Of a stretch of DNA of 64,000 bases, positions 3,854 through 10,715 are shown in pieces; the first letter of the stretch is position 1, and every line of letters begins with the position of its first letter. The stretch lies in NCBI RefSeq assembly GCF_000304355.2, contig NC_018227.2, positions 1,798,001-1,862,000 on the forward strand, in the 5' to 3' direction. The translations under genes and the position numbers were made by a program. A model generated the notes under the pieces. The model saw nothing but the letters and a program-made list of their open reading frames with translations, was not told the DNA's origin and did no database searches. The DNA comes from Methanoculleus bourgensis MS2. GTDB lineage: Archaea; Halobacteriota; Methanomicrobia; Methanomicrobiales; Methanoculleaceae.

Positions 3854-4756
3854 TTACTTCCCCTGTTCACGGTAGACGCAGGACTGCACGTCCTGGCCGA
3901 GTTTCCCGATGGCGTCCGCCCGGCAGCGCGCACAGTGGCGCATCTGCTTGATGTAAGGGGCGCACCGGTCCTGCATCTCCCGCTTCTCCTTTGGCGTGGG
4001 CGGGGTGATCCCGGCGAACTTGTACTGCGGGATGAGCGGGATGACGTTGAAGGTGAACGCCCCCATCTCACCGACCTTCTTTGCGATCTCGGGGATATGC
4101 TCGTCGTTGACCCCGGGGATGTAGACGGTGTTTATCTTGACGAACATCTTCTTTGCAACCGCCATCTCGATCCCTTTCAACTGCTGGGAGAGGAGGAGTT
4201 CCGCCGCCTCGCGCCCATGGTACTTCTTCCCGTTGTACTCAACCCAGGAGTAGATCTTCTCCCCTATCGCAGGGTCGATAGCGTTGAGCGTGACCGTAAC
4301 GTTCCCGACATCGTACTTCGCCAGTTCTTCTATCGACTCAGGGAGCACGAGACCGTTTGTGCTGATGCACATGATCAGGTGCGGGAACTCCTCGTGGACC
4401 AGCCTGAGCGCCTCAAACGTCTCGGGGTTTGCAAGCGGCTCGCCCGGTCCTGCGATGCCGACCACCTTCACGTAGGGGTAGTCCTTAACGACCCTCCTGA
4501 CTAGGTCGAGGGATTCCTCCGGAGAGAGAACCTTGCTTGTCACACCCGGCCGGCTCTCGTTCACGCAGTCAAAGTCGCGTATGCAATAGTTGCATTGGAT
4601 GTTGCACTTCGGGGCGACGGGGATGTGGCACCGCCCGAAGGCATGGCATGCTTTGTCAGAGTAGCAGGGGTGCTCGCTGATCTTGCGTAATTGCTCAGGA
4701 TCGTAGGGGACTTCCTTGCCCTGGACCGTCGCGGTCCGATACGATTCGTCGGCCAT
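3854..4756 (-). CDS. nifB: NifB-type radical SAM protein (FeMo-cofactor core biosynthesis)
   Basis: The 300-residue protein carries the radical-SAM motif C51-x3-C55-x2-C58, further N-terminal cysteines (C31, C37, C43) expected to hold auxiliary clusters, the GIAGPGEPLAN motif and the C-terminal CARCRADAIG signature of NifB. It lacks the NifX-like domain of many bacterial NifB proteins, as usual for methanogens. By family it converts [4Fe-4S] units to NifB-co, the precursor of the nitrogenase cofactor. No nif structural genes are in this window, so nitrogen fixation cannot be concluded. The ogg ATG lies 55 nt past the stop and may be cotranscribed. Confidence 0.85.
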   Translation of the reverse strand: MADESYRTATVQGKEVPYDPEQLRKISEHPCYSDKACHAFGRCHIPVAPKCNIQCNYCIRDFDCVNESRPGVTSKVLSPEESLDLVRRVVKDYPYVKVVGIAGPGEPLANPETFEALRLVHEEFPHLIMCISTNGLVLPESIEELAKYDVGNVTVTLNAIDPAIGEKIYSWVEYNGKKYHGREAAELLLSQQLKGIEMAVAKKMFVKINTVYIPGVNDEHIPEIAKKVGEMGAFTFNVIPLIPQYKFAGITPPTPKEKREMQDRCAPYIKQMRHCARCRADAIGKLGQDVQSCVYREQGK

Positions 4757-4918: not shown

Positions 4919-6907
4919 TCAGGCGGTCTCCCGGGTGATGTCGAGCGGGAGAGACTCCTTCCCGGCCTCCCGCGCACCGGTCTCCTGTTCCATCCCGAAC
5001 CGCTCCTCCGCCGCCTTCAGGATCTGCCCGAGCATCCCGGAATATGAAATACCCGCATACTTCGCCATCTTTGCGAGGTGGCCGTCCCAGCACCAGCCCG
5101 GGTTCGGGTTGACCTCAAGGAGTTTTGGGTTGCCGTGCTCGTCCAGGCGCCAGTCAAACCGGCAGTAATCGCGGCACTCCAGACGCTCAAAGAGGGCGAG
5201 GCAGCACCGGACGACTACCTTCTCGGTCTCCTCAGGGAGGTTTGCGGGCCTCGATACAATCTTCCAGTACGGCGAATCCGGGAGCCACTTCGCTTCGTAG
5301 CCGCAGAGCCGGGGAAGTTCAGGGGGCAGCGCTGAGTAGTCCTCCTCAGTGATAGGAAGCACCGTGCAGTACCCTGAGGGGTTCCCGATGATGCCGACGC
5401 TGATATCTTTTCCGGTGAGGAACTCCTCGACGAGGAGCGAGTGATCATAGCCAACCGTTGCCCGGAGGGAGTTGATGACATCGGCGAGGTCTTCGAGGGT
5501 GTTGGCGACGCTCTTTTGCGTGATACCATACGAGGAGTCGCCGGTGTTGGGCTTGACGATGGCAGGGAGTTTCATCCCGGCGTCGTAGGTGCGGTCGCCG
5601 GGCGTGATGAAACAGGCGTCCGGCACCGGGATTCCCATCTCTTTCGCGACGCCGCGCACGAGCGATTTGTCGTAGCAGAACGCAAGCGACTGCGGCCCTG
5701 ACCCCGTGTACGGGATCCCGAGCATCTCCAGGAGCGCAGGCACGTGGAGTTCTCTCCTCGGGTCATTGTTGAACCCCTCGTCACAGAGGTTGAGGACGTA
5801 GTCCACCTTCCCTTTCAGTTTTGCGAGGTCCTGGATCATCGTGTCGTGCTTGCAGAGGTAGGTGAACCGGTAACCTTTCAGTTCCCGGAGCGCTGCCTTC
5901 ATCTGGTCGATGGTGTAGAAGTCGTCGTCATCAAAGACGCAGGACGGTTTCAGGGCGTCCGGCCTGGTCGGGTCGCCGAGCAGTACCGCGACGTGTTTTG
6001 CTCTCTCCCCGCCCCTTACCTTCGTTGTCGACCACTCCTTCCTGAGAACCGCGGTAACGATATGGCGGCGCTCCATCATACCGAGGTCCTGGTTCCGCCG
6101 TGACTCCGTGGCGATATCATGGAAGGTGATGCCGGAGAAACCTGCCCGTTCCAGGAGCTGCCGGAGGTTCTCGGCGGTGTAGAGGCGTTCAGCATAGAAC
6201 TGGTCGGCTACGACGCCCCTGTCGACATCCGTGATCACCTCCCTTGAGATCAGGCGCTGCCCATCGAGCGAGAGGGACCGCTCCCGGCAGACGAACATCG
6301 CCGGGTCGATCCACTCCCACGACCTTGGCTGGAAGTGGTCTTTCAGGTACTCGCCGTCGGCCACATCCAGGAGCACCCGCCCCCAGGGCTTGAGGACGCG
6401 CCTGAGTTCCATGAGGATCCGCAGGTCTTCCTCGACGGAATCAAAGTAGCCGAAACTGTTCCCGAGGACGAGGACGGCGTCGTAGGTGTCGGCGCGGTAC
6501 GGCAGCCGGCGTGCGTCCCCCTCCCGGAACCTGACCTGCATCCCCTCTTTCTTTGCGGTCGACCGGGCCCGCTGGATCAGGTAGTGCGACTGGTCGAGGC
6601 CTTCGGCGCTGTAGCCACGTCGAGCGAGTTCGAGTGTATGCCTCCCTTGGCCGCAGCAGAGGTCGAGTACCTTCTCATCAGGCTGGAGATGCAGGACCCG
6701 GGTAATCCGGTCGATCTCAGACCTGGTGATCTGCTGGTCGTCGACGACGTCGCCGTCTGTCTTGAGGTAGAGGCGGTTGAAGATACCCTTCCACCAGTCG
6801 GATTTCACATGCTCTTCAAGGTCGGGAACCGGACCAAGCGTCCGTTTCTGATGTTTTCCCTTCCGTCTGCTATCAGGGGGTTCGTCTGTGTGGGTCTCGT
6901 CGGTCAT
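4919..6907 (-). CDS. Fusion of a class I SAM methyltransferase and a D-Ala-D-Ala-ligase-like ATP-grasp enzyme
   Basis: One 662-residue frame holds two domains. Residues about 35-290 are a Rossmann methyltransferase with motif I VLDLCCGQGRHT, a GLDQS acidic loop and motif VLVLGNSFGYF. Residues about 305-640 resemble D-alanine-D-alanine ligase: an N-terminal lobe, the ATP-grasp phosphate loop PNTGDSSYGI, VEEF, and the metal site LLEVNPNPGW. Archaea such as this one lack murein, so the ligase half probably joins another amino acid or small acid pair. The start is ATG 6907, with GGTGAG 8 nt upstream; a GTG nine bases earlier is less well placed. Substrate unknown. Neighbouring nifB is on the same strand but has its own promoter. 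Confidence 0.75.
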   Translation of the reverse strand: MTDETHTDEPPDSRRKGKHQKRTLGPVPDLEEHVKSDWWKGIFNRLYLKTDGDVVDDQQITRSEIDRITRVLHLQPDEKVLDLCCGQGRHTLELARRGYSAEGLDQSHYLIQRARSTAKKEGMQVRFREGDARRLPYRADTYDAVLVLGNSFGYFDSVEEDLRILMELRRVLKPWGRVLLDVADGEYLKDHFQPRSWEWIDPAMFVCRERSLSLDGQRLISREVITDVDRGVVADQFYAERLYTAENLRQLLERAGFSGITFHDIATESRRNQDLGMMERRHIVTAVLRKEWSTTKVRGGERAKHVAVLLGDPTRPDALKPSCVFDDDDFYTIDQMKAALRELKGYRFTYLCKHDTMIQDLAKLKGKVDYVLNLCDEGFNNDPRRELHVPALLEMLGIPYTGSGPQSLAFCYDKSLVRGVAKEMGIPVPDACFITPGDRTYDAGMKLPAIVKPNTGDSSYGITQKSVANTLEDLADVINSLRATVGYDHSLLVEEFLTGKDISVGIIGNPSGYCTVLPITEEDYSALPPELPRLCGYEAKWLPDSPYWKIVSRPANLPEETEKVVVRCCLALFERLECRDYCRFDWRLDEHGNPKLLEVNPNPGWCWDGHLAKMAKYAGISYSGMLGQILKAAEERFGMEQETGAREAGKESLPLDITRETA

Positions 6908-7264
6908 CTGAGCCACTCACCATTGGTCCTGTCTCCGGGATAGAACCGGCATGTTGCCGGAGCGCAAAAGAGGTCGGTTGACGTGTGCCATTGTTGAATG
7001 TTATTCGGTAGGACGGCATTGATAAAAGCATTATGTCACAGTTCCCGCTGCCGCGGGAAACGGCAGGTTTCACGGGGACGTTTCTCCCCCTGAGATCCCT
7101 GCCGTCGCGCCGGGGAGATACGATCCAGCGCTCCTCCTGGTGATGGGAGCCGGGTGCGGCAAGGGCATACCGGGATGGCAGGGCCTGCCTGAGATCCGCG
7201 AGACACACTTATATATGCACGCAGGTGGTTGTATATGTGCAGACTATCTGCATGGTTGAAGTAT
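6908..7264. other. Intergenic region with divergent promoters
   Basis: There is no convincing gene. It separates the minus-strand fusion gene from the plus-strand mini-protein pair. CTTATATATG at 7208-7217 is a good TATA box for the plus-strand genes. Confidence 0.5.
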
Positions 7265-8523: not shown

Positions 8524-9435
<912 letters not shown>

Positions 9436-9887
9436 CTCAACCTCCCTATGGTCCAGGGGAGTCGTGCGAATACAACATTCTTTCGCCTGACCGCCACAGC
9501 TCTCGCGACCTGGGGAATGGATCTCTCCGGGCGCCGCCCGGGCCCCGGAGATCCGGCCGGACGGGAAGAGATCCTCTGCGCATGGGCATTCACGTTTGCG
9601 GGCACGAAGGGGGTATGGGTGCTGGTAGAGTTATCTCCCTTCCGGTGTCTTATTGCACCTTAATAAGAGTGTTTTGGTGCGTGAGGCAACTCACGGTGTG
9701 TGAAATGTCAGATGCGATAGTGCTCTATATCCCGGCCCGTCCGCTCCATCCCGACCCCCTTCCGGTTCATTGGGCGATCGGGTGTATACCTGTCAACTTC
9801 CCACCACCATAACGCCGGGAGCCCTGACGGTTGTCTCTCCCCGCACCACGCAATCAAGGTTTGTCGCGGAGGAGGTGTGATGATCAC

Positions 9888-10200
9888 CTGGAGTGGGAAT
9901 GGCCGGGATGGGCAACGTTTCTCTCCCGGTGGGCCCCTACAGTGGGCTTACCCGAATCTCCAGTGGAAATGGGGGGGTTATGGAATTCTCCAGGTTTCAT
10001 CCGGAATCTCTGTATTCTCTATACTGCCTGCCGGCTTTCATGGTTGCCCCGGAGGCCGCTCGGGCTGTTCAGAAACGCTCTTTAATTCCGGGGTTTTTTA
10101 CGAATTCGGGGGCTATTTTGGGATATCGTACCCGGCTGACCGGGGTTGCAGGGGCGTGAGGGATTGAGTGTGGCCGGAATGCCCCGGGGTTTCCAGTATT
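9888..10200. other. Candidate replication-origin boxes (ORB-like)
   Basis: CTCCAGTGGAAATGGGGGGG at 9958-9977 closely resembles the archaeal ORB/mini-ORB core (CCAGTGGAAACnnAGGGG). A degenerate copy in the same orientation, GAGTGGGAATGGCCGGG, starts at 9891, and an inverted one, CCCCGGGGTTTCCAGTATT, is at 10182-10200. orc1/cdc6 is only about 2.6 kb away. This is inference from motif resemblance; the boxes are few and two are weak. Confidence 0.35.
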
Positions 10201-10483
10201 GACTGATCCGGCGGCAGAGCCTGGTTTTTTGTATTGGATACTGCCCTGGTCTGGATGATGGAGGCTCCCTGCTCTGTTCCATCGCGCCCCTGACCCGGCT
10301 TTGGCGGGGAGGGAGCGAGCCCTCTCCCCTGCCCCTCCCTTGGCGGCGAAGAGCTACCACGGTCCACTTGCCCCGGGGCGAGCCCGGCGGAAAAGACAGG
10401 CCTGGTCTACCCTGCAACCACCACAGCCGGGAGGTCGTTTTCATCCCTGTCGCATGGGGCTACGTCTCATGCGGGTTTCGTAC

Positions 10484-10489
10484 AAAAAA
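10484..10489 (-). terminator. Oligo-T terminator of the mop gene
   Basis: Six T on the minus strand, about 17 nt beyond the stop codon. Confidence 0.4.
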
Positions 10490-10505
10490 GAGTGAATCTG
10501 GCTGC

Positions 10506-10715
10506 TCAGTCGACGGCGACCATGACCTCTGTCGACTTGACCACGGCGTAGACTTTCTTGCCGACGGTAAGTCCGAGGTTCTCTACGGCCTTTTTGGTGA
10601 TGACCGAAGTGATCTCACCGCCGCCGTCCAGCGCGATGACAACCTCAGCGGTGACCATTCCAGTATCGATGTGTTTTACTTTTCCAGGGAGCTGGTTTCT
10701 TGCACTTAACTTCAT
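10506..10715 (-). CDS. mop: Mop-type molybdate/tungstate-binding protein (single TOBE domain)
   Basis: The protein has 69 residues from the ATG that begins MKLSARNQLPGKV, the classic start of Mop/TOBE domains; a GTG three codons earlier is also possible. The pattern ending VGKKVYAVVKSTEVMVAVD is typical of the oxyanion-binding beta barrel that assembles as a hexamer in clostridial MopII. By family it stores or senses molybdate or tungstate. It may compensate for the TOBE-less ModC at 2053-2766. Confidence 0.85.
   Translation of the reverse strand: MKLSARNQLPGKVKHIDTGMVTAEVVIALDGGGEITSVITKKAVENLGLTVGKKVYAVVKSTEVMVAVD

Follow-up and report, generated by a model that had tools for sequence, protein, structure and literature searches.

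A conserved fusion of a SAM methyltransferase and a D-Ala-D-Ala-ligase-type ATP-grasp domain in Methanoculleus bourgensis MS2 and in diverse archaea and bacteria

The closest described relatives of the gene analysed here concern its two halves separately. For the ligase half these are the D-Ala-D-Ala ligases of the DdlB/VanA type and a group of archaeal Ddl-like ATP-grasp proteins, and ATP-grasp enzymes also act on proteins. For the methyltransferase half they are the glycine and sarcosine N-methyltransferases (GNMT/GSMT) and NmbA of Chlorobaculum tepidum, whose solved structure (9ri2) is titled a bacillithiol methyltransferase and whose target is the cysteine nitrogen of bacillithiol (PMC12719100, PMC6282198). 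A fusion of the two kinds of domain was not found described in the open-licence papers searched, and a search for a curated family covering it returned none.

Gene and domain architecture

The window, that is the whole stretch of 64,000 nucleotides analysed (M. bourgensis MS2, NC_018227.2, positions 1,798,001 to 1,862,000), carries the fusion gene on its minus strand, and the genome (2,789,774 bases, one contig) has one copy. The stop lies at 4919, and the frame may start at the ATG at 6907 (662 aa) or at an alternative GTG at 6916 (665 aa), of which the ATG is favoured because alignments to many close relatives begin at residue 3 or 4; residue numbers are counted from the ATG unless marked as GTG numbering. 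The features, in window positions, are as follows.

4919..6907, minus strand: methyltransferase-ATP-grasp fusion CDS, 662 aa from the ATG (open reading frame, Pfam, relatives)
6038..6844, minus strand: class I SAM methyltransferase domain with a beta-strand cap, residues 22-290 (Pfam, model, match to NmbA 9ri2)
6641..6667, minus strand: SAM-binding motif I LDLCCGQGR, residues 81-89 (D82, C85, G86, G88 and R89 invariant in 54 sequences)
6443..6460, minus strand: NSFGYF motif, residues 150-155 (N150, S151, G153, Y154 and F155 invariant in 54 sequences)
4988..6004, minus strand: Ddl-type ATP-grasp fold with both lobes, residues 302-640 (fold search, PF07478)
5666..5671, minus strand: D413-K414, predicted ATP-binding lysine equivalent to DdlB K97 (conservation and alignment)
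5552..5554, minus strand: K452, predicted ATP-binding lysine equivalent to DdlB K144 (conservation and alignment)
5078..5110, minus strand: NPNPGWCWDGH, residues 600-610 (all 11 residues invariant in 54 sequences)

Both Pfam matches, to Methyltransf_25 (E 2.7e-20, residues 83-179, GTG numbering) and to Dala_Dala_lig_C (PF07478, E 4.8e-25, residues 425-633, GTG numbering), are well over the curated cut-offs. An AlphaFold2 model of the entire protein has a mean pLDDT of 83 with both domains well modelled, although their relative placement is unreliable (pTM 0.54), and the methyltransferase domain by itself was modelled with a pLDDT of 89 and a pTM of 0.87. A fold search gave a Z of 30 to Ddl structures over residues 302-642, so that the Ddl fold is complete in the C-terminal half, N-lobe included. 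Pfam, AlphaFold2 and the fold search thus agree with the original prediction of two complete domains in one intact frame, a SAM methyltransferase, here of class I, and an ATP-grasp of the D-Ala-D-Ala ligase type. A misassembly of two genes is ruled out, as relatives hold both domains in a single open frame with no internal stops.

Distribution and gene neighbourhood

The fusion was matched in 37 of 40 genomes of the family, nearly always as one continuous frame, in 54 of 199 genomes of the order, and in 82 of the 393 genomes sampled across the phylum, where some matches are ligase-only relatives or fragments. At least 585 relatives are present in the GTDB contig collection, while in samples of two bacterial phyla matches were limited to 7 of 297 genomes in one and 6 of 246 in the other; 697 plasmid records match the query, none of them reaching 80% query coverage. 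Carriers are scattered across bacteria and archaea of many phyla with 60-70% identity, are largely anaerobic, judged by lineage, and include many murein-bearing bacteria, which leaves unsupported the idea that the fusion is peculiar to organisms without murein. Every full-length homologue at 50% identity or above has both domains; no functional split form was found among these homologues, and those with a single domain seem to be cut off at the end of a contig or to be broken genes (e.g., G011 and G155). Over both domains approximately 128 columns are invariant in an alignment of 54 diverse sequences (61-73% identity to the window protein). Most Methanoculleus genomes sampled have the gene, which is thus near-universal in some cultivable methanogens, but some near-complete genomes of the genus (G008, G011) lack it or have it broken, so that it is dispensable.

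The tree of 67 proteins from a quick maximum-likelihood analysis is close to a star, with many forks weakly supported; in it Methanosarcina-type sequences cluster with one Desulfobacteraceae sequence and Methanophagales sequences fall among bacteria, with the qualification that metagenomic bins may hold foreign contigs. This mixing of archaea and bacteria suggests, for the family as a whole rather than for single events, that horizontal transfer is likely. One order-level relative has two full copies with equal scores, separated by approximately 19 kb, plus a partial one (G394:C1:2246921-2267456 and 9091-10638), which reflects either a recent duplication or an assembly effect.

Regarding gene neighbourhood, no conserved partner gene was found in 77 loci outside Methanoculleus, where the commonest neighbour clusters are found at 5, the exception being a DNA polymerase IV-type gene beside the fusion in 8 near-relatives. 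Pfam analysis of the 108 nearest neighbours revealed no common theme, and only approximately 24 of 122 flanking genes share the strand of the fusion at a distance of up to 100 bases. In the window, a NifB-type radical SAM gene (3854-4756; TIGR01290, over cut-off) follows on the same strand 162 bases downstream. This gene and an ABC transporter upstream are regarded as synteny, because they recur mainly in Methanoculleus and near relatives, and the neighbourhood was dropped as a functional clue since any conservation of partners is confined to close relatives. The lack of a conserved partner implies that one gene suffices for the trait; the fusion enzyme works alone or alongside housekeeping enzymes.

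The two halves compared with characterised enzymes

Alignment of the ligase half with E. coli DdlB and unfused relatives places DdlB K97, K144, E180, R255, D257, E270 and N272 at K414, K452, E494, R583, D585, E598 and N600, which rules out a ligase domain lacking its ATP-site residues; K215 is also conserved, E187 is replaced by Asp, and the residue equivalent to E270 is Asp in a few homologues. The D-Ala-binding residues, in contrast, are replaced (H63 by E377, Y216 by W541, S281 by G609 and L282 by H610) and the replacements are invariant within the family, while E15 has no reliable counterpart, the N-lobe being too divergent for this site to be aligned. The NPNPGWCWDGH segment, where Ddl has NTSPGMTSHSL, comprises the predicted Mg-binding N600 followed by what appears to be a family-specific acceptor-pocket signature. 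The description of the domain as fully Ddl-like therefore stands for the fold and fails for the substrate pocket.

Automated models label this domain Ddl, which would fit a D-Ala-D-Ala ligase of the host, either intact or degenerate. However, the D-Ala pocket is lost, and against the Ddl model TIGR01205 the window protein reaches 121 bits and its homologues 101-133 bits, far below the cut-off of 245.65 bits. A separate true Ddl is kept by 17 of the 19 bacterial carriers tested, so the fusion is not a murein enzyme, and none was found in the seven archaeal carriers tested. Decay is in addition unlikely because conservation is strong. The pocket, the model score and the separate-Ddl test refute this explanation, which is extremely improbable, and the Ddl annotation wrongly implies a wall function in wall-less archaea. 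The C-terminal half is thus, as predicted from its residues, a Ddl-fold ligase for another substrate and not Ddl, and the loss of the pocket together with the separate bacterial Ddl bears out the earlier expectation that it serves neither murein nor pseudomurein and probably makes a different amino-acid conjugate.

Some relatives of the ligase half lie in gene sets of their own. An archaeal Ddl-like ATP-grasp gene, approximately 30-35% identical to the ligase half, adjoins a lysine-2,3-aminomutase-like (KamA) gene at four loci (L136:7318-10989, L135:6059-9730, L138:7956-11457 and L141:7176-10465), with an acetyltransferase gene in the L138 set and the ATP-grasp fused to a peptidase-like domain in L141; these loci are apparently operons for beta-amino-acid conjugates. 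On a plasmid of Thioflavicoccus mobilis (L134:2596-8077) a ligase relative lies by genes for SbnA-type 2,3-diaminopropionate synthesis, with a KamA family gene in convergent orientation. In a Methanophagales-like bin (L138:6978-11893) the KamA, acetyltransferase and ATP-grasp set lies between N-terminal and C-terminal pieces of the fusion gene, a split that reflects either an insertion or an assembly effect.

Regarding the methyltransferase half, the best solved match of its profile is NmbA (9ri2, E 1.3e-28, profile positions 15-241), which is the only strong match through the cap, whereas GSMT aligns in the core alone (positions 32-163, E 2.7e-12), leaving betaine synthesis unsupported. Within the NSFGYF motif the SFGYF portion is common to NmbA in the alignment, and NSF occurs in GNMT-type enzymes. 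In the structure search several small-molecule and peptide methyltransferases tie, among them C-methyltransferases, and the structural neighbours include glycine sarcosine N-methyltransferase and the peptide methyltransferases CypM, CgnL and LahSB. Inferences on the pocket from the fusion model are unsafe, as AlphaFold misordered the cap strands of NmbA itself (PMC12719100). Stand-alone methyltransferases from this broad family, whose gene contexts are uninformative, also have NmbA as best match; NmbA may thus simply be the one member with a solved structure and a poor guide to the acceptor, so that confidence in an N-directed activity is moderate and in a cysteine-directed one weak. The gene encoding BshC was detected in 5 of 26 fusion carriers and in none of the 7 archaea, and since 21 of 26 carriers are without it bacillithiol is not a general acceptor and was rejected as the substrate.

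Proposed function and relation to known systems

The fusion is best read, with a probability of roughly 0.55, as a bifunctional and self-contained small-molecule enzyme with two activities, ligation of a carboxylate to an amine and N-methylation of an amine in its substrate or product. The ATP-grasp domain would spend ATP on converting a carboxylate, probably that of an amino acid, into an acyl phosphate, which would then be joined to an amine as in Ddl but with different substrates. The N-terminal domain would use SAM to methylate, most likely, an amino nitrogen in either the substrate or the product of ligation, in the way that NmbA acts on the cysteine amine of bacillithiol. Use of SAM and ATP is predicted from the conserved fold and residues, the ligation chemistry by analogy with the Ddl fold, and the coupling of ligation and methylation from the fixed fusion, while N- rather than O- or C-methylation is suggested with moderate confidence by the nearest characterised relative. 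A methylated product, as originally proposed, is plausible.

The product could be a low-molecular-weight thiol or cysteine conjugate, in which cysteine would be ligated to an amine and methylated on its nitrogen, as BshC and NmbA do for N-methyl-bacillithiol. NmbA is the nearest solved sequence, cap included, carriers without BshC would need another cysteine-joining step that the ATP-grasp domain could supply, and a largely anaerobic range of carriers is compatible with it; however, the resemblance to NmbA is at family level only, no cysteine-specific residue was identified in the fusion, and the available part of a Methanosarcina thiol study reports cysteine, CoM and CoB and no further thiol (PMC12713407), so this remains an unlikely option. 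Equally tentative is the more specific proposal that methanogens and many uncultured anaerobic bacteria use an unrecognised N-methylated aminoacyl amide, perhaps a low-molecular-weight thiol built on cysteine, whose synthesis would need just one horizontally spread gene.

A compatible solute, such as a methylated dipeptide or amino acid amide formed against salt or ammonia stress, would suit an accessory trait with patchy distribution and a single stand-alone gene, as well as the structural kinship with glycine sarcosine N-methyltransferase and the KamA-like genes, once with an acetyltransferase, that adjoin archaeal ligase-only relatives as in beta-lysine osmolyte synthesis. HR-MAS NMR on intact M. 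bourgensis, however, revealed in strain MS2T glycine betaine only, thought to be imported (PMC12776343), which weakens the osmolyte suggestion of the original prediction and argues against a major solute, not against a minor or conditional one; this explanation is rather improbable. Some ATP-grasp families modify proteins or peptides, and amino-acid tagging combined with methylation of a protein or peptide would agree with CypM, CgnL and LahSB as structural neighbours, but the Ddl-type fold is typical of free amino acids and neither a precursor peptide gene nor another partner is conserved nearby, making such an activity likewise improbable. The preferred reading remains a small-molecule ligase and N-methyltransferase. 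If it makes an N-methylated aminoacyl amide, this would constitute a new small-molecule pathway of one polypeptide, and if the product is a redox or stress metabolite, current views of which small molecules matter in anoxic sediments and digesters would have to be revised. Genetic systems exist for some genera that carry the fusion (Methanosarcina type), so that its product can be identified.

Compared with known systems, the fusion shares both fold lobes and the ATP and Mg residues with the DdlB/VanA-type ligases and differs from them in the replaced D-Ala residues, the fused methyltransferase and other N-lobe motifs (CVFDDDDFYT and NLCDEG). The closest unfused ligase relatives in the phylum, the Ddl-like ATP-grasps by KamA-like genes (approximately 30-37% identity), likewise have an EG motif in place of DdlB His63, but are without a methyltransferase and have other partner genes. 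GNMT and GSMT share the class I fold and the N-S-F motif, with a sequence match that is limited to the SAM-binding core and weaker than that of NmbA. NmbA has the LYLK, SFGYF, PR and ERxLS motifs in common with the fusion, cap region included, but is only about a quarter identical, stands alone and acts with BshABC, which most fusion carriers are without, judged by BshC. The fusion, strongly conserved and spanning the archaea-bacteria divide, is thus apparently an undescribed enzyme family that combines known parts in a new way and does not represent new chemistry.
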